The notes under the pieces: generated by a model
The model's database searches: none
What the model was told of the DNA's origin: nothing
Seen by the model: only the letters and a program-made list of their open reading frames with translations
Shown: in pieces, positions 7,774 through 48,930 of the stretch
Layout: every line of letters begins with the position of its first letter
Numbering within the stretch: position 1 is the first letter of the stretch
Origin: Cupriavidus pauculus
Lineage (GTDB): Bacteria > Pseudomonadota > Gammaproteobacteria > Burkholderiales > Burkholderiaceae
Direction of reading: 5' to 3'
DNA: 64,000 nucleotides
Assembly (NCBI RefSeq): GCF_003854935.1
Contig: NZ_CP033969.1
Location: 3,348,001 to 3,412,000, forward strand
Translations under genes and position numbers: made by a program

Positions 7774-7791
7774 TTTCTTTTGCTAATGTTC

Positions 7792-7836
7792 TTGCACACG
7801 TGTTATCTGTTTGCTACAGTGTGCACATACGTTAGC
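7792..7836 (+). promoter_or_regulatory. Operator-covered early promoter
   Basis: TTGCAC (7792-7797), a 17-bp spacer and TACAGT (7815-7820) with TTTGC before it form an extended -10 promoter. Inverted operator-like sites flank the -10: 7794-7807 (GATAACACGTGTGC on the minus strand) and 7823-7836 (GCTAACGTATGTGC on the minus strand). A weaker copy starts at 7782. The block aligns closely with 16057-16103. It should drive 7853-9042 and be silent under repressor. Confidence 0.7.
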
Positions 7837-7852
7837 AAACAGGGAGCGCGAG

Positions 7853-8017
7853 ATGAACAATTACCAGGTCACCTTCACAACGAGCCTCGGCACGATGCGC
7901 GTCGACGTTGCCGCATTCGACCGCGACGACGCTCAGGAAGCGGCCATCGACCTGATGGAGCAGGTAGGCGTTTGCCACGGCGAGATCGTCTCGATCCGCC
8001 GCGCCGATCTGCACTGA
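7853..8017 (+). CDS. Small phage protein (54 aa)
   Basis: The first gene after the operator-covered promoter, with GGGAGCG upstream of ATG 7853. The protein (MNNYQVTFTTSLGTMRVDVAAFDRDDAQEAAIDLMEQ...) reads as a compact beta-beta-alpha unit. The gene at 8030 follows after 12 bases. No family recognised; codon use resembles its neighbours, so I take it as real. Confidence 0.6.
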   Translation: MNNYQVTFTTSLGTMRVDVAAFDRDDAQEAAIDLMEQVGVCHGEIVSIRRADLH

Positions 8018-8029
8018 TCGGAGCCGGCC

Positions 8030-8341
8030 GTGGACCGCTACCAAGCCGAGGACGAGATCGAATACAACCTGCGCGCCGGCGCCATCGACGAGTACGTCGA
8101 CGGCGATACGGCACTGGCGGTGTTGGGCAACCTCGTCAAGCTCTTCCACGCCCGAGCCAAGCCGGGCATCCCGATGGTCGAGCACCTGCGCCAAGTGAAT
8201 CTGGCAATTGCCGGCGAACTCGCCAAGTTCACCGAGCAGGTCATCGCCGACAACGTCGATTCCGTGATCACGGCCGCCGCCGAGGATCGTCGCAACGCCC
8301 GCTCCAACTACCGCGAGCGGGTGTCCGAAGCGCACCACTGA
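8030..8341 (+). CDS. Hypothetical helical phage protein (103 aa)
   Basis: GTG start at 8030 after CGGAG. The protein is almost wholly helical and acidic at its N-terminus (VDRYQAEDEIEYNLRAG), with ALAVLGNLVKLFHARAKPG in the middle. It is in the same operon as the outer-membrane-type gene at 8362, which starts 20 bases after its stop. Function unknown. Confidence 0.6.
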   Translation: MDRYQAEDEIEYNLRAGAIDEYVDGDTALAVLGNLVKLFHARAKPGIPMVEHLRQVNLAIAGELAKFTEQVIADNVDSVITAAAEDRRNARSNYRERVSEAHH

Positions 8342-8361
8342 GTCTTCCCAGGAGAAGAAAA

Positions 8362-9042
8362 ATGAAGAAGTTGCTCCTCAGCGTGGCGCTGATTGCGTCG
8401 ACGCTGTTCCCGCTGGCCGCCCATGCCCTGGACTTCGAGGTCGGAGCGGGCGTCGCCCGGTACACCACGCGCGGAAACATGATGTGGTACCAGGAAGGCT
8501 TCCCGCACACACTGGATCTGAACGCCCCCGCCTTCGAGGCCGGTCTCGCAGACAACTTCTACCAGAACGGCCGCTTCGGCATCGACTGGCACGCGAGCTA
8601 CGTCTATATGGGCAACGTCCACTCGGACGCCATTGCGACGCCGGTCGACAGCAACTACGACAAGGTCAACAAGACGTGCTTCGGCGAGTGCTACGCCATG
8701 TCACGGTACGTGGCCAACGGGCACAACCAAGGCATCAAGCTGACCATCGAGCCGAACTACACCTACATGGGATGGCGGTTCGGTCTCGAAGCCGGCGCCT
8801 ACATGTTCCGGCCTACTTGGCACGCCACGGTCTACGACGTGCCTCCGTGCAAGACCTGCGAGCCGCAGACCCTGAATGTTGCTAGCGACAGTCGGATTCA
8901 GGTTGCGCCGGTCGTGGGCGTGTCGATCGGCCGCGGCGGATTCAGCGTTGCCGCCCTCCACTACTTCAACAAGACGCGCGGCGACCCGGCTTTTCCCATC
9001 TGGAAAAGCACCACGACGCTGATGCTCAAGTACCGGTTCTGA
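8362..9042 (+). CDS. Exported outer-membrane beta-barrel-type phage protein (226 aa)
   Basis: Residues 1-22 (MKKLLLSVALIASTLFPLAA, then HA) are a signal peptide cut near AHA-LDF. The mature part alternates polar and aromatic residues in short strands and ends in YRF, the C-terminal Phe signature of outer-membrane barrels. Two Cys pairs (CFGEC, CKTCEP) may form disulphides. GGAGAAG precedes the ATG. In a phage early operon such a protein could mask a receptor or alter the envelope during infection, as lambdoid Cor does; this is inference. Expression is under the operator-covered promoter at 7792. Confidence 0.7.
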   Translation: MKKLLLSVALIASTLFPLAAHALDFEVGAGVARYTTRGNMMWYQEGFPHTLDLNAPAFEAGLADNFYQNGRFGIDWHASYVYMGNVHSDAIATPVDSNYDKVNKTCFGECYAMSRYVANGHNQGIKLTIEPNYTYMGWRFGLEAGAYMFRPTWHATVYDVPPCKTCEPQTLNVASDSRIQVAPVVGVSIGRGGFSVAALHYFNKTRGDPAFPIWKSTTTLMLKYRF

Positions 9043-9112: not shown

Positions 9113-10930
9113 ATGATCAGAGATCAGTTCATTCTCGACATCGCTCCCGAGATCATCATCGACAACTTCGCCGGCGGCGGTGGAGCAAGCTGCGGTATCG
9201 AACTGGCGCTCGGCCGCCACGTCGACATCGCAATCAACCATGATCCCGAAGCGGTGCATATGCATACGATGAACCATCCGCAGACCGAGCACCACTGCGA
9301 GAGCGTCTGGGACGTCGATCCACTCGCCTTGGTGCAGGGTCGCCCAGTTGGTCTGGCCTGGTTCAGCCCAGACTGCAAGCACTTCAGCAAAGCCAAGGGC
9401 GGGAAGCCGCGGGACAAGAAAATCCGGGGCCTCGCATGGGTGGCGATGCGATGGGCGGCCCTCGTGCGCCCGCGCATCATCATGCTGGAGAACGTCGAGG
9501 AGTTTCAGACGTGGGGCCCCGTGCTCGATGACGGCACGCCTTGCCCGAAACGGAAAGGCGACACATTCCGCTCGTTTGTGCGCCAGTTACAGGAGAAGGG
9601 CTATGCCGTCGAATGGCGTGAGTTGCGCGCTTGCGACTTCGGCGCACCGACTATCCGCAAACGCCTATTCCTGATTGCACGTTGCGACGGGCAGCCCATC
9701 GTCTGGCCCGAGCCGACCCATGGCGCGCCCGATAGCCCTCTCGTTAAGGCGAAGCAGCGCAAACCGTGGCGTACAGCCGCAGAGTGCATTGACTGGTCGA
9801 TTCCCTGCCCGTCGATCTTCGAGCGGGCCAAGCCGCTGGCCGAAGCCACGCAGCGCCGTATCGCGCGAGGCCTGCGGCGCTACGTCATCGGCGCGGCAAA
9901 GCCCTTCATCGTTACGCTTTCCCATGGCGAAGGAAAGCCGGGGGCGGCCCGGCGCTGGGGTTCGGGCGCCCGTAGCACTGACGACCCGTTCCAGACGGTT
10001 ACTGCGAACAGTTCATATGCCGTCGTCGCTCCCGTTCTGACCGAATGCGCCAATGCGTCCGGGCAGCGCAGTTTCCGCACCGACGAGCCCCTGCGCACCC
10101 AGTGTGCCGAGGTCAAGGGCGGCCACTTCGCACTGGCGAGCGCCACGCTTGTGCAGACTGGATACGGCGAGCGTGCCGGCCAGGCGCCACGCGCACCAGG
10201 ATTGGACAAGCCCTTGGGTACCGTCGTTGCTGGCGGAGCCAAGCACGCCGTGGTGTCCGCCTTCCTCGCCAAGCACTATGGCGGGAACTATGAGGGACCC
10301 GGTGTTTCGCTGACCGACCCGGCCAGCACCATCACGACCACCGACCACCACGCGCTGGTAGCGGCGCAGTTGGTCGGTTGCGGCGGCCGAGCCGGTCAGA
10401 GCCGCCCGCGCGACGCAGGCGAGCCAATGCAGACGATCACGGCCAAGGGCGATACCGCCATCACCACGTCGCACCTGGTAAAGCTGCGCGGCCAATGCAC
10501 GGGAAGCGCGACGGGCGAGCCGGTGCCAACCATTTCGGCCCAGGGCAACCACATTGGCGAAGTGCGCGCCTTCCTCGTGAAGTACTACAGCGAAGGCGGC
10601 CAGGATCAGGACTGCCGAGACCCGATGCACACGATTCCGACTAAGGACCGCCTGGGCTTGGTGACCGTCGCCGGCGAGCAATACCAGATTGCCGACATCG
10701 GCATGCGCATGCTGGAGCCCCACGAGCTCTACGCCGCGCAGGGATTCCCTTCCACCTATGTGATTGCGCCGATCATGACCAATGGGAAACCGCTTCCAAA
10801 GCGTGCCCAAGTGCGTATGTGCGGAAACAGCGTCAGCCCTCCCATGGCAGCGGCTCTCGTGCGCGCAAACGCCCCTGAAATGGCTAGTTGGTCGGCAAAG
10901 GAAGCTAACGCAAGCAAGGAGGTCGCATGA
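9113..10930 (+). CDS. Phage DNA C5-cytosine methyltransferase with repetitive recognition region (605 aa)
   Basis: The N-terminal 200 residues carry the C5-methyltransferase motifs: the FAGGGGASCG SAM loop, a variant motif IV (WFSPDCKHFSKA, with Cys as nucleophile but SPDC instead of PPCQ), ENVEEF and TIRKRLFLIAR. From about residue 290 to 515 six to seven units of 31-40 residues recur (DP..T(I/V)....H..(V/L)...L.K..G), followed by the C-terminal motif (MLEPHELYAAQGFP, CGNSVSPPMAAAL). The repeats take the place of the target-recognition domain. It likely methylates phage DNA against host restriction. The ATG has a poor Shine-Dalgarno. The gene ends by ATGA in the next. Confidence 0.88.
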   Translation: MIRDQFILDIAPEIIIDNFAGGGGASCGIELALGRHVDIAINHDPEAVHMHTMNHPQTEHHCESVWDVDPLALVQGRPVGLAWFSPDCKHFSKAKGGKPRDKKIRGLAWVAMRWAALVRPRIIMLENVEEFQTWGPVLDDGTPCPKRKGDTFRSFVRQLQEKGYAVEWRELRACDFGAPTIRKRLFLIARCDGQPIVWPEPTHGAPDSPLVKAKQRKPWRTAAECIDWSIPCPSIFERAKPLAEATQRRIARGLRRYVIGAAKPFIVTLSHGEGKPGAARRWGSGARSTDDPFQTVTANSSYAVVAPVLTECANASGQRSFRTDEPLRTQCAEVKGGHFALASATLVQTGYGERAGQAPRAPGLDKPLGTVVAGGAKHAVVSAFLAKHYGGNYEGPGVSLTDPASTITTTDHHALVAAQLVGCGGRAGQSRPRDAGEPMQTITAKGDTAITTSHLVKLRGQCTGSATGEPVPTISAQGNHIGEVRAFLVKYYSEGGQDQDCRDPMHTIPTKDRLGLVTVAGEQYQIADIGMRMLEPHELYAAQGFPSTYVIAPIMTNGKPLPKRAQVRMCGNSVSPPMAAALVRANAPEMASWSAKEANASKEVA

Positions 10931-12897: not shown

Positions 12898-13340
12898 CCG
12901 CCCTCACCCCATGGAATCCCGACCCCCGGGCCGTGCGCCGCGTGAAAGCCCCGTTGCCAGCGCCGACGCACTGCCCATGGTGCCAAGCCCGTGTGTCGAT
13001 CGTGAAGAACAGCGAGATCTACGGCAGCCCGCACGGTGACTGGCCGTGGATCTTCCTCTGCGGCAACAAAGAGTGCCGCGCCTACATCGACATGTACCCC
13101 GGCACCGGCATTCCGCGCGGGACGCTGGCCGACTCTGCCACCCGCCAGGCCCGCGGCTGGGCCAAGCAGCTATTCAGCGGCGTCTGGCAGAGCGGCCACA
13201 TGACCAAGGCAGACGCCGTCCGCTGGCTGGCCGGCAAGCTCGGCATCCCAGAGGAGGAGTGCGAGATCGGCCGCTTCGATGTGCCGATGTGCCAGCGGGC
13301 GGTTACGGCTTGTTTGGAGCTGGCAAGAAAGGCGGCTTAA
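12894..13340 (+). CDS. Zinc-finger (DUF3268-like) phage protein (148 aa)
   Basis: Residues 28-60 (HCPWCQARVSIVKNSEIYG...WPWIFLCGNKECRAYIDMYPGT) form a CxxC...CxxxxC zinc ribbon followed by the conserved P.GTLAD..TR..R region, as in DUF3268 proteins. The C-terminal part (WLAGKLGIPEEECEIGRFDVPMCQRAV) fits the family too. Last gene of the rightward cluster; its end meets the convergent gene at 13337 with a 4-base overlap. Confidence 0.7.
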   Translation: MTALTPWNPDPRAVRRVKAPLPAPTHCPWCQARVSIVKNSEIYGSPHGDWPWIFLCGNKECRAYIDMYPGTGIPRGTLADSATRQARGWAKQLFSGVWQSGHMTKADAVRWLAGKLGIPEEECEIGRFDVPMCQRAVTACLELARKAA

Positions 13341-13996
13341 CGCTCGACGTAAAGCAGCGCGTCCATTTCAGCACGCGCCGCCTCCTCCACCACACGCTTA
13401 AATCTTGCCAACGTTTGGTAGTTATCGGCGTACTGTTCTCTTGCTGAAGCCCTCACGACCTCAAGGTCCGGGCTCCGCTCCCTCGTGGCCTTCGATACGG
13501 CAGCCGCCACATCAAAAGCTATGCTCCCCATGCTAAATATATGGTACGCGTAATTTTCCACGGGCATCCGGAGATTTGGAAAGTACAGAGTCGCTATGAC
13601 GCTCGCAGTATCCACGTCCGTCGAATCAAAGCTTTCTACAGTGCCCGTTGCACATTGCTTAAAAAAGTCACTAGCCTTCTGGTGGCTAGCCAGAATATCT
13701 CGAAGAAGTTCCTCAATCTTGACGCGCTTTAGCGCATTGGCTTCCCTCGCCCTCCACTCGGCATGACCGATCTCGGTTTTGATTTCCTCGGTGACTCGCG
13801 TGTTTTCCTGCAGTTGCCGCTTGAGGTCATCGAAATCATCTCGGGTTGCAAGATTCTCGGCACGGCGCTTGATGTATGCGCCTGCGAAGGAGGCAAGGAA
13901 CGATGCTGCCAGGAAGAGGCACCAGTAAAGCCAGTTCTCGGCGATGCGCCTGGAAACGATCTCGGTCACGAAAGCTTGGGTGGTAGCGTCCATCAT
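13337..13996 (-). CDS. Membrane-anchored coiled-coil protein of the accessory operon (219 aa)
   Basis: The gene starts at ATG 13996, overlapping the TGA of the preceding small gene, with CGGGG before it; an ATG at 14026 is possible but has no ribosome site. Residues 20-42 (AENWLYWCLFLAASFLASFAGAYI) span the membrane once. A charged coiled coil (about 45-100: RRAENLATRDDFDDLKRQLQENTRVTEEIKTEIG) and a helical domain follow. Third gene of a leftward, tightly coupled trio. The family is unknown. Topology suggests a membrane-tethered sensor or effector. Confidence 0.7.
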   Translation of the reverse strand: MMDATTQAFVTEIVSRRIAENWLYWCLFLAASFLASFAGAYIKRRAENLATRDDFDDLKRQLQENTRVTEEIKTEIGHAEWRAREANALKRVKIEELLRDILASHQKASDFFKQCATGTVESFDSTDVDTASVIATLYFPNLRMPVENYAYHIFSMGSIAFDVAAAVSKATRERSPDLEVVRASAREQYADNYQTLARFKRVVEEAARAEMDALLYVER

Positions 13997-14202
13997 GACC
14001 CCGTGATCGCGTGGTAGATATGCCATAAGGCGCTGGTTCTACTATCAGCGCTCTTCAGACAGTCGGCTTCAACGATTCCGTCGGAGTTGCGCTGGCACAT
14101 ACCTGTCAGAAGCGCATACCTCTCATTTTCGACCCGCGCTATAACGTGAGAAAGGTAGAGCACTGCTGCAACGAGCATAACGAGAGCCACGTTCTTGAGC
14201 AT
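13993..14202 (-). CDS. Small membrane or secreted protein of the accessory operon (69 aa)
   Basis: The N-terminus MLKNVALVMLVAAVLYLSHVIA is a single membrane segment or uncleaved signal anchor. The remainder has two Cys (TGMCQRNSDG, ADCLKSAD), likely periplasmic and disulphide-bonded. Start and stop overlap its neighbours (TAATG and TGATG junctions), so all three genes of the leftward unit are translated together. No family recognised. Confidence 0.65.
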   Translation of the reverse strand: MLKNVALVMLVAAVLYLSHVIARVENERYALLTGMCQRNSDGIVEADCLKSADSRTSALWHIYHAITGS

Positions 14203-14906
14203 TAATTTCCCCTCCCATCACGTTTGTCCGCCGCCGCCTGTGCCCCCGCAGGAATGGCGCCATACAATGCCTCCATCTCTTTCGGCACTGTAATGGTTGT
14301 CTGAACGACAAAGTTCAAAGCGGCGAACAACCTTGCCACGACGTCTGGCGTGTCGTCGACATTCATCTCACCGGGATGCACCGCGTTGTTCCCAACGACC
14401 CGTATGGCATCAAGTGCATGGCGCGCCGGCTCGGGAAGCCCCTTTTCCTTCACCAGAAACTTGATGTCCTCATTGATGTTTTCGCCCTTACCCCCCAACT
14501 CCCTACACAGCTTTTGTATTGCCAGTCGAAGAAGAGCAGCAGCTCCGCGCGGAGAAACCGCCATGATCGCAGCAGCCTCCTCGTAATCTTGCCTGCAGGC
14601 GTCTGGAAGATCAGGGTTGGCAGGAGGGGCGGCAGTCGCCGTGGGATGGATCAATCTCGGACCGTGCCATAGCGCAACACCCTTGCACGAGGCACACATT
14701 GAGGCAGCAAAATTCTTCATAAGGGGCGCAGTCCGACCAACGTTCTCTGCTAGAGACACTGGCCCGTCTTCTTTGTTCGCGAAAGGTTTGCCGCCTATGT
14801 CCGAAAACGCCAGCGCTCGCACCCAAGTCTGGTGCGCGTACGCTCCGCAGTGCGGGCAGGAAAATCGTTGGGCATCTGCTGATGGGGGTACGTATCCGTT
14901 AGTCAT
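14202..14906 (-). CDS. DUF4145 protein with N-terminal zinc ribbon (234 aa)
   Basis: Residues 15-70 carry CPHCGAYAHQTW and CASCKGVALW, a split zinc ribbon. Residues 115-215 (YEEAAAIMAVSPRGAAALLRLAIQKLCRELG...LPEPARHALDAIRVVGNNAVHPG...LFAALNFVV) are the DUF4145 helical domain, seen both as a stand-alone protein and fused to restriction-type enzymes. First gene of the leftward trio; expressed away from the C4 promoter and lacking an operator over its own start, so probably active in the lysogen. A defence or conversion role is inference. Confidence 0.8.
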   Translation of the reverse strand: MTNGYVPPSADAQRFSCPHCGAYAHQTWVRALAFSDIGGKPFANKEDGPVSLAENVGRTAPLMKNFAASMCASCKGVALWHGPRLIHPTATAAPPANPDLPDACRQDYEEAAAIMAVSPRGAAALLRLAIQKLCRELGGKGENINEDIKFLVKEKGLPEPARHALDAIRVVGNNAVHPGEMNVDDTPDVVARLFAALNFVVQTTITVPKEMEALYGAIPAGAQAAADKRDGRGN

Positions 14907-15022: not shown

Positions 15023-15083
15023 GCTAACGTGTTAGCATAAAATGAAGCTTGACACTCGTGCGTCGCGTGGCTAACCTTTGCTC
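15023..15083 (+). promoter_or_regulatory. Promoter of the C4-icd-ant module with operators
   Basis: A consensus -35, TTGACA (15049-15054), a 17-bp spacer and TAACCT (15072-15077) give a start near 15084. The perfect operator dyad GCTAACGTGTTAGC lies upstream (15023-15036), and a partial copy, GCTAACCTTTGCTC (15070-15083), covers the -10. This implies repressor control on top of antisense control. Confidence 0.75.
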
Positions 15084-15140
15084 ATCGCTGAGACAACAGC
15101 GATACGGGATTGGCGTCCCGGATACACAGGCGCACAACTA

Positions 15141-15170
15141 AGCCGCGCCGCATATGCTCGCGGCTTTTTT
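15141..15170 (+). terminator. Intrinsic terminator inside the ant leader, upstream of C4
   Basis: AGCCGCG (15141-15147) pairs perfectly with CGCGGCT (15159-15165) across an 11-base loop, followed by a run of T. It would end a transcript of about 85 nt that carries the upstream C4-complementary segments, so C4 and ant need read-through. It may serve as an attenuator. Confidence 0.7.
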
Positions 15171-15194
15171 GTTCGCAACGCTTGGCATCTCCTA

Positions 15195-15271
15195 TGGTGG
15201 GCCGGGCGAGGGGGCCGCAAGGCCCACCGGTTCCTGTGTTTCCGGCACGCCAACCTCGTTTCGGTCCACCA
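15195..15271 (+). ncRNA. c4: C4-type antisense RNA (77 nt)
   Basis: The 77-base segment closes with a stem, TGGTGGGCC (15195-15203) with GGTCCACCA (15263-15271). It holds a GCAA-capped hairpin (GGGCC 15212-15216, GGCCC 15221-15225) and a CCGG hairpin whose loop contains CCTGTGT (15233-15239, a'). The segment ACGCCAA (15247-15253, b') follows. Complements of both exist twice: TTGGCGT at 15110-15116 and 15278-15284, and ACACAGG at 15124-15130 and 15306-15312. The last copy overlaps the Shine-Dalgarno of the next ORF. This is the arrangement, and the length, of phage P1/P7 C4 RNA, which blocks antirepressor synthesis. The RNA ends are inferred from the closing stem. Confidence 0.85.
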
Positions 15272-15319
15272 CCCCGATTGGCGTCGGGGGGCGGATTACC
15301 CGCTAACACAGGAGTTGTC

Positions 15320-15484
15320 ATGCAAGTATCGACTCGCCGCGCCGTCGCGCACCCTAAGCTGGACCTCTTCCGCGCTATCGAATGCGCCCGCGAAGCACGG
15401 TTCGACGAATTCCACACTAATCGTCGTCCGCTGCCGCACGCCTCAACGGCACAGCACGCTCATACCACTGGCTTGGGAGCGTGA
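15320..15484 (+). CDS. Small leader ORF in the icd position, coupled to ant (54 aa)
   Basis: The ATG at 15320 follows AGGAG (15310-15314) with 5 bases between; this ribosome site is contained in the C4-complementary copy ACACAGG. The peptide begins MQVSTRRAVAHPKLDLFRAIECARE. Its stop (TGA 15482-15484) is one base before the ant ATG (15486), so ant translation should depend on it, as icd does for ant in P1. Whether the peptide has an icd-like effect on cell division cannot be told; no similarity to P1 Icd is claimed. Confidence 0.65.
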   Translation: MQVSTRRAVAHPKLDLFRAIECAREARFDEFHTNRRPLPHASTAQHAHTTGLGA

Positions 15485-15485
15485 C

Positions 15486-16049
15486 ATGTCGACCCTCTCA
15501 TTCCGTTTTCACGAAGCTCATCCCATCCGAGTAGTCATGGTTCTGGACGAGCCTTGGTTCGTGGCTTCTGACGTATGCGCGGTACTCGACTATCGTGACG
15601 CTTTCAATGCTGTACGCATCCTAGATGCAGACGAGAAGGGTACTCACAATATGAGTACCCCTGGTGGCGAACAACGCGTCACCATCATCAGCGAGTCCGG
15701 CCTCTATGCCCTGGTGCTGCGCAGCCGCAAGCCGGAGGCACGCCAATTCCGCAAGTGGGTGACGGCTGAGGTGTTGCCGGCCATCCGGAAGACGGGGCGC
15801 TACGAGACGCCGGCAGCGCCGGTGGAGAGGAAGGTGGCGACGCCGACCGAGTTCCTGTCGCTTCCGTTCATCGACGTCAACTCCCCCTTCCGCTTCTGGT
15901 GCCTGCCGCTGGATGGATTTCCACATCCTCAAAGGCCACTACTGCGGCTTCTTCGGAACTCTTGGCCACGCCGCGTGGCTGACGGCCCGCAGCCCTGCCC
16001 TGACCCAACTCCACTGATTAATTCGGCGTCGCGCTCCGCGCGGCGCTGA
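15486..16049 (+). CDS. ant: Phage antirepressor, BRO-N domain (187 aa)
   Basis: Residues 5-110 are a BRO-N domain (FRFHEAHPIRVVMVLDEPWFVASDVCAVLDYRDAFNAV...ESGLYALVLRSRKPEARQFRKWVTAEVLPAIRKTG). After residue 120 a Pro/Arg-rich tail ending SASRSARR replaces the usual second domain (KilAC, ANT or P22_AR), so the protein is short and the tail may be an eroded or frame-shifted remnant. In BRO-N antirepressors this domain contacts DNA or the repressor. Translation is coupled to the leader ORF and targeted by C4. It would inactivate the repressor at 726-1160. Confidence 0.82.
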   Translation: MSTLSFRFHEAHPIRVVMVLDEPWFVASDVCAVLDYRDAFNAVRILDADEKGTHNMSTPGGEQRVTIISESGLYALVLRSRKPEARQFRKWVTAEVLPAIRKTGRYETPAAPVERKVATPTEFLSLPFIDVNSPFRFWCLPLDGFPHPQRPLLRLLRNSWPRRVADGPQPCPDPTPLINSASRSARR

Positions 16050-20999: not shown

Positions 21000-21214
21000 T
21001 GAAACCGATCTATCTTGATCGGCACGCGGCCGCAGCCGCCGTTAGCCTGTCAGACACAAGCCTGGAAAAGTTGGTGCGCGAAGGGAAGTTTCCGAAACCG
21101 CGGGTGCTATCTGGACGCCGCGTCGCCTGGTTGACGCGGGAGGTCGAAGAATGGGCCGAAACACGGCCCGTATCAGACCTCCCTCCTCCCGCCAACACAT
21201 CACGGCGCGGCTGA
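20999..21214 (+). CDS. xis: AlpA/excisionase-type DNA-binding protein (71 aa)
   Basis: The protein is a MerR-like HTH_17/AlpA unit: IYLDRHAAAAAVSLSDTSLEKLVREGKFPKPRVLSGRRVAWLTREVEEWA, with the typical FP.P....GRR.AW wing. Short size and its place at the end of the early operon, converging on the integrase gene with a 15-base overlap, make a recombination directionality factor likely. The gene symbol is functional, not based on identity to a named Xis. Confidence 0.75.
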   Translation: MKPIYLDRHAAAAAVSLSDTSLEKLVREGKFPKPRVLSGRRVAWLTREVEEWAETRPVSDLPPPANTSRRG

Positions 21215-22495
21215 TGGTCGAGCTGACGCCAGCGCCTCAAGCCTGGCGGACAGCTTGCCCAGCCACTCGTGCCGCTCTTTATCGTAGGTGTGCCGATTGT
21301 AAACACCCTGCACGCCGGGAAGCATATGCCCGAGGATCGACTCCGCAACCTCATTTGGACAGCCCATTGAAGCGAGAATCGTTCGGACGGTCCGCCGAAG
21401 GTCATGCGGGGCCCAGTGCGTGACCGTTAGCCGGGCTCGTTTGGCCTTCGGACGAGTCTTAGAGTAAGGCTGGTGATAGAACACCGCGGTCTGGATCGCT
21501 TTTTGTTCGATCGACCCGCCGAATCTTGATGGGAACAGGTAGCCGCTTCCTGCAACCGCAAGCCGACGCCTGACAATTTGCTCGGCTTGACCGAACAGCG
21601 GCACGCGCAAGTCCGTCGCGCCCGCCCGCTTCGCGTTCTTGGTTTTTTCCTTCGGGATCGTCCACCAAAGGCCACCGGACTCTTCCTGGATCTCGCCCGC
21701 TTCCATGCTGACGATCTCGGAGCCCCGCGTCCCGGTCCAAAGATAGAGCGTTAGGACGTCGGCAACGACCCGGCTGAAGTTCGGCAACCAGCGGATCAAC
21801 TCTCCTACCTCAACCTCCGAAAGTACCCGCTTTACCTCGCCGATCGGCTTGCCTTCGATCATCTTGCCGCGGCTCTGCAGCCGGCCGCGCATGATCTGTC
21901 GCCACCAGTTGGCAATGGCCGGATCGAGCCGGCCTGAATCTAGGCCATAGTCCCAGGCGGCGCCCAGTTCCGAGCGCAGCTTCGCGGCCTGGACCGGGAT
22001 ATGGGCATGCGAGTCCAGGAGGTCGAATGCGCGCGCCCTTGTCACCTCTTCCGGTCGCAGGTCGGCGAAGTCCCCCAGCATTGTGTCGAACATTCGACGG
22101 ACTTCCTTTGCTCCCTTGGCTGTTCTCTTGCGCTCAATGTGACCGACAAGGAAGTCATCGCACAGCCGGCGCACTGTATAAGGGCCCGGCTGGGGTAAAC
22201 TGCCCTCCGATACCGACCGCGCCATGGTTCGCGCTGCCTTTTTCTCGGCGGCGACGTCCCGGCCGCTATCGCGCACAGCCCTCAGCCGCTCCCATTCGAC
22301 GATGGCGGCGGCCGGAGACATCGCCGGCCAGGCGCCGATCTTCGACTGCTTCATTTTCCCGTCGATGGGTGACTTGTAGCGGTAGATCCAGGTCCGCCGC
22401 GTGACGGTGCATTCGAGACGCAGACCAGGATGGTCGGCGATTGTCATATGCTCCCCGGGCTTGAGCAGCTTGGCTGCGCGCGCGTCGAAGTACAT
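21200..22495 (-). CDS. int: Tyrosine site-specific integrase (431 aa)
   Basis: The chosen ATG at 22495 gives MYFDARAAKLLKPGEHMTIA, an N-terminal arm-binding/DUF4102-like domain (LRLECTVTRRTWIYRYKSPIDGKMKQSKIG), then a core-binding domain and catalytic domain with Arg in LWTGTRGSEIV, HDLRRT, LGH and Tyr in VYNRHTY. The reading frame is open further upstream to 22669 but that part covers the direct repeats and is not protein-like. It carries out prophage integration and, with the 20999 product, excision. Repeats just upstream (22496-22587) look like its own binding sites. Confidence 0.92.
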   Translation of the reverse strand: MYFDARAAKLLKPGEHMTIADHPGLRLECTVTRRTWIYRYKSPIDGKMKQSKIGAWPAMSPAAAIVEWERLRAVRDSGRDVAAEKKAARTMARSVSEGSLPQPGPYTVRRLCDDFLVGHIERKRTAKGAKEVRRMFDTMLGDFADLRPEEVTRARAFDLLDSHAHIPVQAAKLRSELGAAWDYGLDSGRLDPAIANWWRQIMRGRLQSRGKMIEGKPIGEVKRVLSEVEVGELIRWLPNFSRVVADVLTLYLWTGTRGSEIVSMEAGEIQEESGGLWWTIPKEKTKNAKRAGATDLRVPLFGQAEQIVRRRLAVAGSGYLFPSRFGGSIEQKAIQTAVFYHQPYSKTRPKAKRARLTVTHWAPHDLRRTVRTILASMGCPNEVAESILGHMLPGVQGVYNRHTYDKERHEWLGKLSARLEALASARPSAAP

Positions 22496-22587
22496 GGCGT
22501 AGGTTTTCCCCGGCGTAGGTTTTGCCGCAAAGGGATGGATGCGATGCGGCGTAGGTTTTTTTAGATGATACGCCAAAAACCTACGCC
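22496..22587. other. Integrase-site cluster, probable attachment region
   Basis: GGCGTAGGTTTT occurs at 22496-22507, 22512-22523 and 22548-22559, and inverted at 22576-22587. The last two make a 40-bp inverted arrangement across an AT-rich centre. Directly between the integrase gene and mutS, these are likely arm- or core-type integrase sites. The exact crossover needs the left end. No tRNA lies here. Confidence 0.6.
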
Positions 22588-22610: not shown

Positions 22611-25340
22611 ATGACGAGTGTTGACGTGGCTGGCGAGATCGAGCCAAAAGACGTAGAAACCGCCCCCACAAAGGGATTGCGGGCGAAAACCGAGGCAGAT
22701 CAAGCAGTTAAGAAGACTGCCAAAGAGACGCATACCCCAATGATGCAGCAATACCTGCGCATCAAGGCGGACCACCCGGACACGCTGCTGTTCTACCGGA
22801 TGGGCGACTTCTACGAACTGTTCCACGACGACGCCGAGAAGGCCGCCCGCCTGCTCGACATCACGCTGACGTCGCGCGGGCAGTCCGGCGGCGTGCCGAT
22901 CCGCATGGCCGGCATCCCGTTCCACTCGGTCGACCAGTACCTGGCGCGGCTGGTCAAGCTGGGCGAATCGGTGGCGATCTGCGAGCAGATTGGCGATCCG
23001 GCCACGAGCAAGGGGCCGGTGGAGCGCAAGGTCGTCCGTATCGTCACACCCGGCACGCTGACCGACGCCGCGCTGCTGCCCGACAAGGTGGACAGCTACC
23101 TGATGGCCGTGCACCAGCAGACGCTGCGCCGCGGCGTGGGCAAGGTCGGGCTGGCGTGGCTGAACCTGGCCAGCGGCGAACTGCGGCTGATGGAATGCGA
23201 CGCGGCGCAGTTGTCGCGCGAGCTGGAGCGGATCCGGCCGGCCGAACTGCTCTATGCCGATGGCATCGACCTGCCCGCTTTCACCTGCGCCCGCACGCGG
23301 CTGCCCGAATGGCATTTCGACCAGGACGCCGGCACCCGTCGCCTGCGCGAGCAGATTGGCGTGGCCAGCCTGGAGCCGTTCGGCTGCGCCGGGCTGGGCG
23401 CGGCGCTGGGGGCCGCCGGCGCGCTGCTCAACTACGCCGCCACGACGCAGGGCCAGTCGCTGCGCCACGTGCAGGGCGTGACGGTCGAACGTGAATCCGA
23501 GTTCGTCGGGCTCGACACCGCCACGCGGCGCAACCTGGAACTGACCGAGACGCTGCGCGGCGGTGAATCGCCGACGCTGTTCTCGCTGCTCGACACCTGC
23601 TCCACGACCATGGGCAGCCGGGCGCTGCGCCACTGGCTGCACCACCCGCTGCGCGACCCGGCGCTGCCGCGTGCGCGCCAGCAGGCCATCGGCGCGCTGA
23701 TCGCCCAGGACCCGGACGCCGTGCGCGCGGCGCTGCGCAAGCTCTGCGACGTCGAGCGCGTGACGGCGCGGCTGGCGCTGCTGTCGGCCCGGCCGCGCGA
23801 CCTGTCCGCGCTGCGCGACACGCTCAAGGCGCTGCCGACGGTGCAGGCCAGCGTCAGCGCCGCCCAGGAATCGCCGTTGCTGGCGCAGACGATGGACGAG
23901 CTGGGCATCCCGGAGGCGTGCCTGTCGCTGCTGGAGCGCGCGGTGGCCGAGGAACCGTCGTCGGTCATCCGCGACGGCGGCGTGATCGCGCGCGGCTACG
24001 ACGCCGAACTGGACGAACTGCGAGACATTTCGGAAAACTGCGGCCAGTTCCTGATCGAACTGGAAACCCGCGAACGCGAGCGCACGGGCATCAACAACCT
24101 GCGCGTCGAGTACAACCGCGTGCACGGTTTCTATATCGAGGTCACCAACGGCCAGGCCGACAAGGTGCCCGACGACTACCGGCGCCGCCAGACGCTCAAG
24201 AACGCCGAGCGCTACATCACCCCGGAGCTGAAGGCGTTCGAGGACAAGGCGCTGTCGGCGCAGGACCGCGCGCTGGCACGCGAAAAACAGCTCTACGACG
24301 CGCTGCTGCAGGCCCTGCTGCCCCATATCGGCCCCCTGCAGCGCGTGGCCGCCGCGCTGGCCCGGCTGGACGTCCTGGCCACGCTGGCCGAACGGGCGCG
24401 CACGCTGGACTGGAGCCAGCCCGAGCGCGTGGCCGAGAACGTCATCGACATCGCGCAGGGCCGCCATCCCGTGGTGGAAGGCCAGTTGGCGGCCGAATCG
24501 GTGGCGTTCATCGCCAATGACTGCCAGCTCAACGAGGCGCGCAAGCTGCTGCTGATCACCGGCCCGAACATGGGCGGTAAATCGACGTTCATGCGCCAGA
24601 CCGCGCTGATCGTGCTGCTGGCCTGCGTGGGCGCCTGGGTGCCGGCGCAGCGCGCGGTGATCGGGCCGATCGACCGCATCTTCACGCGCATTGGCGCGGC
24701 CGACGACCTGGCCGGCGGGCGCTCGACGTTCATGGTGGAAATGACCGAGGCGGCCGGCATCCTGCACAACGCCACGCCGTCGAGCCTGGTGCTGATGGAC
24801 GAGATCGGGCGCGGCACGTCGACCTTCGACGGCCTGGCGCTGGCGTGGGCGATTGCCCGCCACCTGCTGTCCCACAACCGCAGCCACGCGCTGTTTGCCA
24901 CCCACTACTTTGAGCTGACGCAACTGCCGCAGGAATTCCCGCAGGCGGCAAACGTCCACCTGTCCGCCGTGGAACATGGCGACGGCATCGTGTTCCTGCA
25001 CGCGGTGCAGGACGGTCCGGCCAGCCAGAGCTACGGCTTGCAGGTGGCGCAACTGGCCGGCGTGCCGCAGCCCGTGATCCGCGCCGCGCGCAAGCACCTG
25101 GCCTGGCTGGAACAGCAGTCGGCGGACGCCACGCCGACGCCGCAGATGGACCTGTTCGCGGCTCCGGCCACGCCGCTCGACGACGACGAAGCCCCGGAGC
25201 TGGCCGGGGCCCTGGCCGCCGAACACGCGGCCGCGCTCGATGCGCTGGCCGAGATCGACCCGGACAGCCTGTCGCCGCGCGATGCGCTGGAGGTGCTGTA
25301 CCGGCTCAAGGCGCTGGCAGCCCCGACGCGCAACGCATGA
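22611..25340 (+). CDS. mutS: DNA mismatch repair ATPase MutS (909 aa)
   Basis: MutS recognises base mismatches and small loops and starts methyl-directed repair. The mismatch-wedge motif is FYE at residues 67-69 (MGDFYELF). Connector, lever and clamp domains follow, then the ATPase with Walker [10 protein letters not shown] (about 650), Walker [13 protein letters not shown] (about 726) and the dimerisation tail. The first 42 residues are a Lys/Thr-rich extension not usual at this site, encoded in DNA of lower GC content (31 of 60 bases G/C in 22681-22740) next to the prophage end. The original 5' end may have been replaced by phage DNA. Confidence 0.97.
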
Positions 25341-48126: not shown

Positions 48127-48930
48127 CTACCGCTCGCGGCGCGCGCGCACCGGCTGGCCCCAGCGGTCCACGTCGTCGCGGGCCAGCGGAAATTCGGCCG
48201 GCTGGGTGGCGTCCCACTCGGGGTTGCTGATTTCGCCAAAGACCTGCCGCAGGCGATGGCCCCAGGTGTCGCGGATCATCCGGAAGTAGGCGTTCTTCTC
48301 GTCGATGTTGACAAAGCGCGTCACGCGCAGCGAATCGGTCTCGTAGACCAGCAGGTCCAGCGGCAGGCCCACCGAGATATTCGACTTCAGCGTCGAATCC
48401 ATGGAGATCAGCGCGCACTTGGCGCCTTCGCCCAGCGGCAGCGACGGCGACACCACGCGGTCGACGATCGGCTTGCCGTACTTGGCCTCGCCAATCTGGA
48501 AATAGCAGGTCTCGGGCGTGGCCTCGACGAAGTTGCCCGCCGCGTAGATGTTGAACAGCCGGTGGCGCTCGCCACGGATCTGGCCGCCAAAGATCATGCT
48601 GACGTTGAAGTCGATGCCGGCCTCGCGCAGCGCGTGGGCGTCGCGCTTGTGCACGGCGCGCACGGCGTCGCCGACGATGGAGGCGGCCTCGAACATGTCG
48701 CGGGCCGTCCAGAGCGACCGCTTCTCGTCGCGCGCCTCGGCCAGCAACTGGCGCACCGACTGGCTGATGGCCAGGTTGCCGGCCGTCATCAGCACCATCA
48801 CGCGGTCGCCCGGTTCCTCGAAGACGGTCATCTTGCGGGCCGTGGAAATGGCGTCCACGCCGGCGTTGGTGCGGGAATCGGACAGGAATACCAGGCCGGC
48901 ATCGAGCCGCATGGCTACGCAATACGTCAT
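48127..48930 (-). CDS. Anbu-type proteasome homologue (267 aa)
   Basis: The start at ATG 48930 gives MTYCVAMRLDAGLVFLSDSRTNAG; removing Met leaves Thr as the N-terminal nucleophile of the Ntn-hydrolase fold. AGNLAISQSVRQLL, FGGQIRG..HRLFNIYAAGNFVEATPETCYFQIGEAKYGKPIVDRVV fit the Anbu (ancestral beta subunit) family rather than HslV. It ends a leftward set with transglutaminase-, alpha-E- and ATP-grasp-type genes, the classical Anbu neighbourhood. Peptidase activity is not proven for most members. Confidence 0.88.
   Translation of the reverse strand: MTYCVAMRLDAGLVFLSDSRTNAGVDAISTARKMTVFEEPGDRVMVLMTAGNLAISQSVRQLLAEARDEKRSLWTARDMFEAASIVGDAVRAVHKRDAHALREAGIDFNVSMIFGGQIRGERHRLFNIYAAGNFVEATPETCYFQIGEAKYGKPIVDRVVSPSLPLGEGAKCALISMDSTLKSNISVGLPLDLLVYETDSLRVTRFVNIDEKNAYFRMIRDTWGHRLRQVFGEISNPEWDATQPAEFPLARDDVDRWGQPVRARRER

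Follow-up and report, generated by a model that had tools for sequence, protein, structure and literature searches.

A C4-type antisense RNA module as the likely controller of the antirepressor operon in a myophage-like Cupriavidus prophage

The antirepressor operon of a myophage-like prophage in the soil bacterium Cupriavidus is probably controlled by a C4-type antisense RNA module, and the locus adds another such module to an already known family. The module lies in the window, the 64-kb stretch of DNA analysed here, which contains the right part of the prophage, and its C4 RNA probably keeps the prophage's own wake-up gene silent. Family membership, predicted structure, the positions of the parts, co-variation and protein families were observed, and from these we infer repression, translational coupling and ant as the gene that matters. 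In the proposed mechanism, a single promoter (15049-15077) would be read through a leader carrying a target copy and a terminator-like hairpin, then through C4, a 54-aa ORF and ant. RNase P would release C4 from the readthrough transcript, as in P1, and of the two C4 strands one would pair with a hairpin at 15272-15289, the other with the Shine-Dalgarno that serves the 54-aa ORF. This pairing would block translation of the 54-aa ORF and, via coupling across one base, that of ant too, so that the repressor would stay active.

The Rfam scan revealed a match to the C4 family (RF01695) at positions 15190-15276 of the forward strand (71.3 bits against a cutoff of 45, E 6.6e-12), which spans model positions 1-87 of 87. 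It was the sole Rfam match across the 64-kb window at curated cutoffs, and no second C4 match was found beyond it in the 6.18-Mb genome. The C4 identity put forward in the original prediction is borne out by this score. The prediction had drawn the RNA as a 77-nt segment at 15195-15271; C4 is present there, but the GG start of P1 C4 aligns with G15196, which places the mature 5' end at G15196 and not at 15195. A paper on C4-like RNAs of Acinetobacter (PMC5320573) cites such a GG start as the place where RNase P cuts C4 of P1 and P7, and the 5' end that RNase P would leave on the window C4 is predicted near G15196. The 77-nt C4 alone gave a stable predicted fold (-44.6 kcal/mol). Both pairing strands had been assigned to the hairpin loop, which is right for CCTGTGT (15233-15239, forward strand, complementary to ACACAGG), whereas ACGCCAA (15247-15253, forward strand, complementary to TTGGCGT) is an unpaired strand of the closing junction in the Rfam structure; each of the two co-varies with its targets, as described below.

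The C4 element by itself is ordinary, since a match at E <= 0.001 was obtained in 191 of the 399 genomes sampled from the same family, in 185 of them above the cutoff. A listing from 2010 (PMC2864571) already had C4 in Proteobacteria and phages and c4-a1b1 in gamma-Proteobacteria and phages; it is cited for C4 in Burkholderiales by the Acinetobacter paper (PMC5320573). The only match found in the literature for C4 antisense RNA and Cupriavidus concerned Xylella vesicles. Among the matches listed for literature joining IsrK, C4-type RNAs and antirepressors, both subjects are touched by the IsrK paper (PMC4825925) and by a review of 2025 (PMC12197685), the review handling IsrK and c4 separately in its passages on them. 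Clusters of C4 were also seen: one genome had three matches inside 1 kb (locus L014; 1501-1590, 2216-2307 and 2347-2437), and nine genomes of one genus (g24) and a few genomes of other genera had at least 10 matches each. Several C4 loci (L087:2-1084, L059:2-1060 and others) encode Toprim/PriCT_2 primase-like proteins after a small ORF and are somewhat P4-like, a call made through Pfam for two proteins and through shared ORF groups for the others; P4-like elements may be the source of many C4 copies in these genomes. Among the isolated phages listed as matches to the leader plus C4 (query 15083-15296), the Bordetella avium phages IFTN4, IFTN5 and IFTN6 showed 69.5% DNA similarity, and IFTN3, IFTN7 and IFTN9 matched in the antirepressor gene instead.

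Re-reading of the sequence confirmed the positions originally given for the promoter hexamers, the pairing sites, the 54-aa ORF and the Bro-N ATG. The letters assigned to the sites were reversed, however, with respect to the P1 annotation, in which the C4-proximal site is called a and the SD-proximal site b. In the leader, TTGGCGT (15110-15116, forward strand; formerly b1, a1 in P1 terms) is the complement of C4 ACGCCAA and lies in a stem-loop of the predicted fold, and ACACAGG (15124-15130, forward strand; formerly a1, b1 in P1 terms) is the complement of the C4 loop and is predicted to be unpaired. Downstream, a hairpin directly 3' of C4 (15272-15289, forward strand) presents TTGGCGT (15278-15284) in the predicted fold. 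The second downstream target, AACACAGGA (15305-15313, forward strand), contains ACACAGG at 15306-15312, has a 9-bp match to the C4 loop and overlaps the Shine-Dalgarno of the 54-aa ORF, as had been claimed.

The complementarity noted between 15110-15130 and 15233-15253 was found again at 19 of 21 positions. When the region was shuffled 500 times with dinucleotides preserved, a pair as good came up in 3 shuffles; by itself this complementarity is suggestive, and the comparative data decide. The exact pattern TTGGCGT-N(0-12)-ACACAGG is present in the genome in the leader only, plus its complement in C4. The predicted pairing energies in the window were -37.3 kcal/mol for leader:C4 versus -29.2 kcal/mol for target:C4. 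A nested co-fold of C4 with the mRNA target gave no gain, loop-loop contacts being outside this model.

Co-variation was analysed with 90 loci oriented from the best C4 matches plus the window, of which 76 were left after thinning. The longest Watson-Crick run between a C4 strand and its own site was compared with the runs of the same strand against the sites of other loci; kinship was handled by the thinning and, in the cross comparisons only, by exclusion of identical loops. The 76 loci contained 59 distinct hairpin loops and 28 distinct junction strands. The mean longest runs, own versus other, were 7.2 versus 4.4 and 6.9 versus 4.6 at the two leader sites, and 8.2 versus 4.6 and 6.9 versus 4.5 at the two downstream sites. 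In 10,000 permutations the observed match was never reached for any of the four pairings, and the own run was above at least 95% of the non-cognate runs in 59 and 56 (leader) and in 65 and 56 (downstream) of the 76 loci. The pairing between C4 and its targets thus looks selected, as both C4 strands change together with both target copies.

The position of the SD-proximal target recurs as well. The run was at least 6 bp in 69 of the 76 loci (5 bp or shorter in the other 7), and in 68 of these 69 an ATG or GTG starts 2-18 nt after it; a run together with an SD-like tetramer before the start codon was found in 66 of the 76. Among the same loci, junction-strand targets of at least 6 bp lay within a stem of at least 4 bp at all 74 sites in the leader and at 69 of the 71 found downstream, compared with 55% (leader) and 64% (downstream) of random positions in the same stretches, which points to a modest excess. 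When the downstream ORFs of the 76 loci were compared by blastp with the Bro-N part of the window protein, L010 supplied the sole match; nine first ORFs of other C4 loci gave no Pfam matches.

The 54-aa ORF (15320-15484, forward strand) occupies the icd position as a leader cistron and, as originally claimed, ends one base short of the Bro-N ORF, whose ATG is at 15486. The label icd holds for the position only. Homology to Icd was rejected, as the ORF did not align to P1 Icd, and the Icd model NF033153 matches P1 Icd and not the 54-aa ORF; no family match was obtained for it in Pfam, PHROGs, NCBIfam or PADLOC. In the closest relative, the IMG/VR contig 3300039918_000043 (hereafter L094), the homologous ORF has equal length and the identical one-base gap to ant. 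Codon-position bias was considered as proof of coding and discarded: the mismatches to L094 numbered 11, 17 and 17 at positions 1, 2 and 3, and this lack of a third-position excess gives no support for coding. Three loci (L010, L099 and L016) are without a small ORF and have the SD-proximal target right where the Bro-N or KilA-N gene begins, which fits antirepressor silencing and the idea that the first start codon of the operon is what counts.

The antirepressor gene ant (15486-16049, forward strand) encodes 187 aa with a Bro-N domain (PF02498; 85.2 bits against a cutoff of 25.6, E 4.8e-24) and matches the PHROG anti-repressor Ant (E 7.1e-49), in support of the family originally named. The likeness to P1 is weakened for this protein, as only chance-level segments to P1 Ant1 were obtained (E 26 or worse), with no meaningful alignment. 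The window Ant is 76% identical to the L094 Ant (239 aa) over residues 1-144. Residues 145-205 of the latter have no counterpart in the window ant, which lacks these 61 internal codons, and a frame other than that of ant at 15913-16017 matches the last 34 residues and stop of the L094 Ant. The window ant thus has an internal loss and a frame change relative to L094, and its product may be inactive. The module had been called complete; it keeps an intact Bro-N domain, small ORF and set of RNA parts, but the altered C-terminal part of ant makes this word doubtful. An identical altered Ant is encoded on the IMG/VR contig L093, perhaps from the same strain. A protein search of genome contigs returned one distant relative and nothing more.

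C4 is no fixed partner of Bro-N genes. Among 14 loci chosen for Bro-N similarity (L092-L097 and L099-L106), C4 at the curated cutoff was found within the fetched stretch in three (L093, L094 and L099), and no such match was found in the fetched stretches of the other 11 (L092, L095-L097 and L100-L106). In L095, an sRNA-Xcc1 match and a tRNA were seen 5' of the Bro-N match. As for the partner of Ant, the original prediction had spoken of a non-cleavable-type repressor. This fits a putative helix-turn-helix protein encoded at 726-1160 on the reverse strand (PHROG transcriptional repressor, E 1.8e-14; Pfam HTH_3, E 6.3e-4, below the cutoff), for which no peptidase or cleavage-domain match was obtained in Pfam or PHROG; it is a candidate prophage repressor and a possible target of Ant. 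Induction through a failure of C4, with no SOS cleavage, was the route originally proposed, and it may apply here.

The prophage extends beyond the window. By the coordinates of L093, a contig of 56.2 kb, the left end lies some 34 kb beyond the window. PHROG matches to tail sheath, baseplate wedge, portal and large terminase were obtained in this left part, so the phage looks myovirus-like. Within the window, an integrase gene (21200-22504, reverse strand) adjoins an AlpA-like gene, and the protein starting at 22611, recognised by eye, is presumably MutS. Just 5' of the C4 promoter, on the opposite strand, a DUF4145 gene (14202-14906, reverse strand) matches the PADLOC model PD-T7-4 (E 9.8e-75) and, together with its neighbour (13337-14026, reverse strand), looks like prophage defence cargo; the neighbour had no family above the curated cutoff in Pfam or PADLOC. 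A large cytosine methyltransferase-like gene (9113-10930, forward strand) is also present on the C. malaysiensis plasmid NZ_CP017756.1 with 80% DNA identity. The stretch at about 8360-9042 (forward strand), within the ORF 7780-9042, has by eye a signal-peptide-like start and an outer-membrane look and is a possible cargo gene.

The sigma-70-like promoter (15049-15077, forward strand) consists of TTGACA (15049-15054) and TAACCT (15072-15077) separated by a spacer of 17 nt, as originally placed. The -10 is weak, and a generic promoter scan did not return this promoter; yet both hexamers recur in L094, and L099 has similar ones. The distance from -10 to C4 is 123 nt in the window and 125 nt in P1 (P1c4, -10 at 48218), and the promoter is presumably used.

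The original prediction had taken the upstream sites for target copies and nothing more. A relaxed-threshold scan of the leader RNA gave an isrK-like match (RF01394) at 15084-15170 on the forward strand (41.8 bits, E 7.8e-8, under the 50-bit cutoff) and a c4-a1b1-like match (RF03163) at 15071-15124 (39.3 bits, E 1.3e-8, under the 46.7-bit cutoff). The predicted leader fold comprises, in order, a hairpin, the target hairpin, the free second target and a terminator-like hairpin with a U run. The last of these (15140-15170, forward strand, 5' of C4) has an 8-bp stem; 1.1 such sites are expected by chance in the 1231 bases scanned. A hairpin of the terminator type was present within 80 nt 5' of C4 in 55 of the 76 loci and absent in 21; L055 has the feature at a different place. 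In the controls it was found in 3.4% of other stretches taken from these loci (18 of 525) and in 21.5% of shuffles (327 of 1520), the latter probably because T runs survive shuffling. Among 20 hand-picked loci, isrK lay beside C4 at E <= 1e-3 in 16 and exceeded the isrK cutoff in 8.

The locus may yield a pair of small RNAs that oppose each other: a terminated leader containing a copy of the target, and C4 from readthrough. The co-variation of the leader copy with C4 is hard to explain unless this copy does something. Tentatively, the terminated leader would be an IsrK-like RNA and would bind C4 in trans, with higher ant expression as the outcome. It is likewise conceivable, though we would not count on it, that C4 modules are two-RNA switches in general, in which the isrK-like leader acts as a trans decoy of C4 and readthrough at its terminator determines how much decoy is made relative to C4, timing ant without SOS. 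If true, this would unite P1 c4-icd-ant, Gifsy-1 isrK-orf45-anrP and P4 CI in one scheme, and loop, decoy and target sequences would evolve jointly as specificity groups. The idea that the leader is generally a stronger C4 partner than the mRNA target was rejected: by pairing energies this was true in just 35 of the 76 loci, so C4 has no general preference for the leader. The decoy idea has a precedent in the Gifsy-1 work, whose authors discuss neutralisation of a CI-like RNA by IsrK together with contrary evidence of their own (PMC4825925); what the present comparison adds is the recurrence of the arrangement with co-varying sequences. The same authors reported that IsrK-mediated growth arrest was more pronounced when the C4-like region was co-expressed (PMC4825925), a result that counts against a decoy role of the leader.

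Other explanations of the module were weighed. A chance hairpin without function is extremely improbable, and the 71.3-bit score together with the co-variation across loci rules it out as to family membership. A rather unlikely explanation is that C4 acts as in P4, mainly by ending transcription early, within the leader and first ORF, and not by a block of translation. The P4 CI region itself matches RF01695 with isrK just 5' of it, P4 CI RNA terminates transcription through upstream and downstream sites (PMC4825925), and the terminator-like hairpin of the window leader adjoins the C4 target copy. Against this, the gene under control is an antirepressor, as in P1, and not a primase operon. The SD-proximal target also overlaps the window Shine-Dalgarno, with the SD-like tetramer and start codon recurring at the 66 loci mentioned above, but this argument is weak because it holds for P4-like loci too.

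A cis attenuator, in which the leader would pair with C4 of the same molecule and the processing or folding of C4 rather than trans action would set ant expression, is unlikely. The minimum-energy fold of 15084-15490 does contain the long-range 19-of-21 helix between leader and C4 instead of the C4 fold, but C4 is stable when folded alone, and work by Citron and Schuster in 1990 is said to have found that C4 of P1 and P7 acts in trans. A decaying module, with C4 and its targets intact and ant inactive, is possible, though we think it less probable than a working one; the prophage would then be left with C4-based immunity against related phages, or with nothing. The C-terminal change of ant and the same protein on L093, a contig possibly from the same strain, are in its favour, whereas the intact Bro-N domain, RNA parts and small ORF speak against it.

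Control of an antirepressor operon by C4 is the arrangement of phage P1 (NC_005856, immI), with which the window shares the order of promoter, two upstream targets, C4 of about 77 nt, two downstream targets of which one is close to the SD, small ORF and antirepressor, and in both the C4 matches RF01695. The P1 annotation gives a1 at 48255, b1 at 48269, C4 at 48343-48419, a2 at 48423, b2 at 48452, icd at 48470 and ant1 at 48688. With the window C4 taken as 15195-15271, the upstream targets lie at -88/-74 (P1) and -85/-71 (window) relative to the C4 start, and the downstream targets at +4/+33 and +7/+35, and the ORF start at +51 and +49, relative to the C4 end. The P1-like layout with targets on both sides, as originally proposed, is therefore correct, the spacings being within 3 nt of P1. 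The two differ in that the small ORF of the window is not Icd and its Ant is of the Bro-N type without meaningful alignment to Ant1; the P1 small ORF overlaps ant by 4 nt, whereas that of the window stops 1 nt before it. P1 is a plasmid prophage, whereas that of the window is integrated. The c4-a1b1 score is 51 in P1, above the cutoff of 46.7, compared with 39.3 in the window.

In Gifsy-1, according to the published description, IsrK is a terminated leader and readthrough gives a bicistronic orf45-anrP mRNA (PMC4825925), which resembles what is predicted for the window, namely a terminated leader small RNA and readthrough that reaches a small ORF with coupling to an antirepressor. Translation of orf45 is required there and is coupled to that of anrP, and IsrK supplied in trans raised anrP translation 140-fold (PMC4825925). 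A further likeness is the stable RNA STnc1160, which is processed 3' of IsrK (Hershko-Shalev et al. 2016, PMC4825925). However, the window leader scores 41.8 bits, below the isrK cutoff of 50, and the model of the Gifsy-1 authors has IsrK acting on its own mRNA and not on C4 (PMC4825925). The same authors regard the P4 SeqA RNA as a structural homologue of IsrK (PMC4825925). P4 CI RNA/seqA shows the isrK model followed by the C4 model in the same order as the window, both over the cutoff in P4; P4 controls replication genes by transcription termination (PMC4825925), whereas the window C4 precedes an antirepressor.

The nearest comparison is L094, which shares the promoter, leader layout, C4, 54-aa ORF and Bro-N ant with the window and in whose leader a comparable hairpin plus U run is present. 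Apart from its longer Ant (239 aa), it differs in loop specificity: its loop reads CCTTGAG instead of the CCTGTGT of the window, and matching changes are present in both of its target copies. L094 can thus serve as a naturally occurring compensatory variant of this module, and the comparative set as a whole, with 59 natural loops of which most have matching targets on both sides, makes the role of the upstream copies testable.
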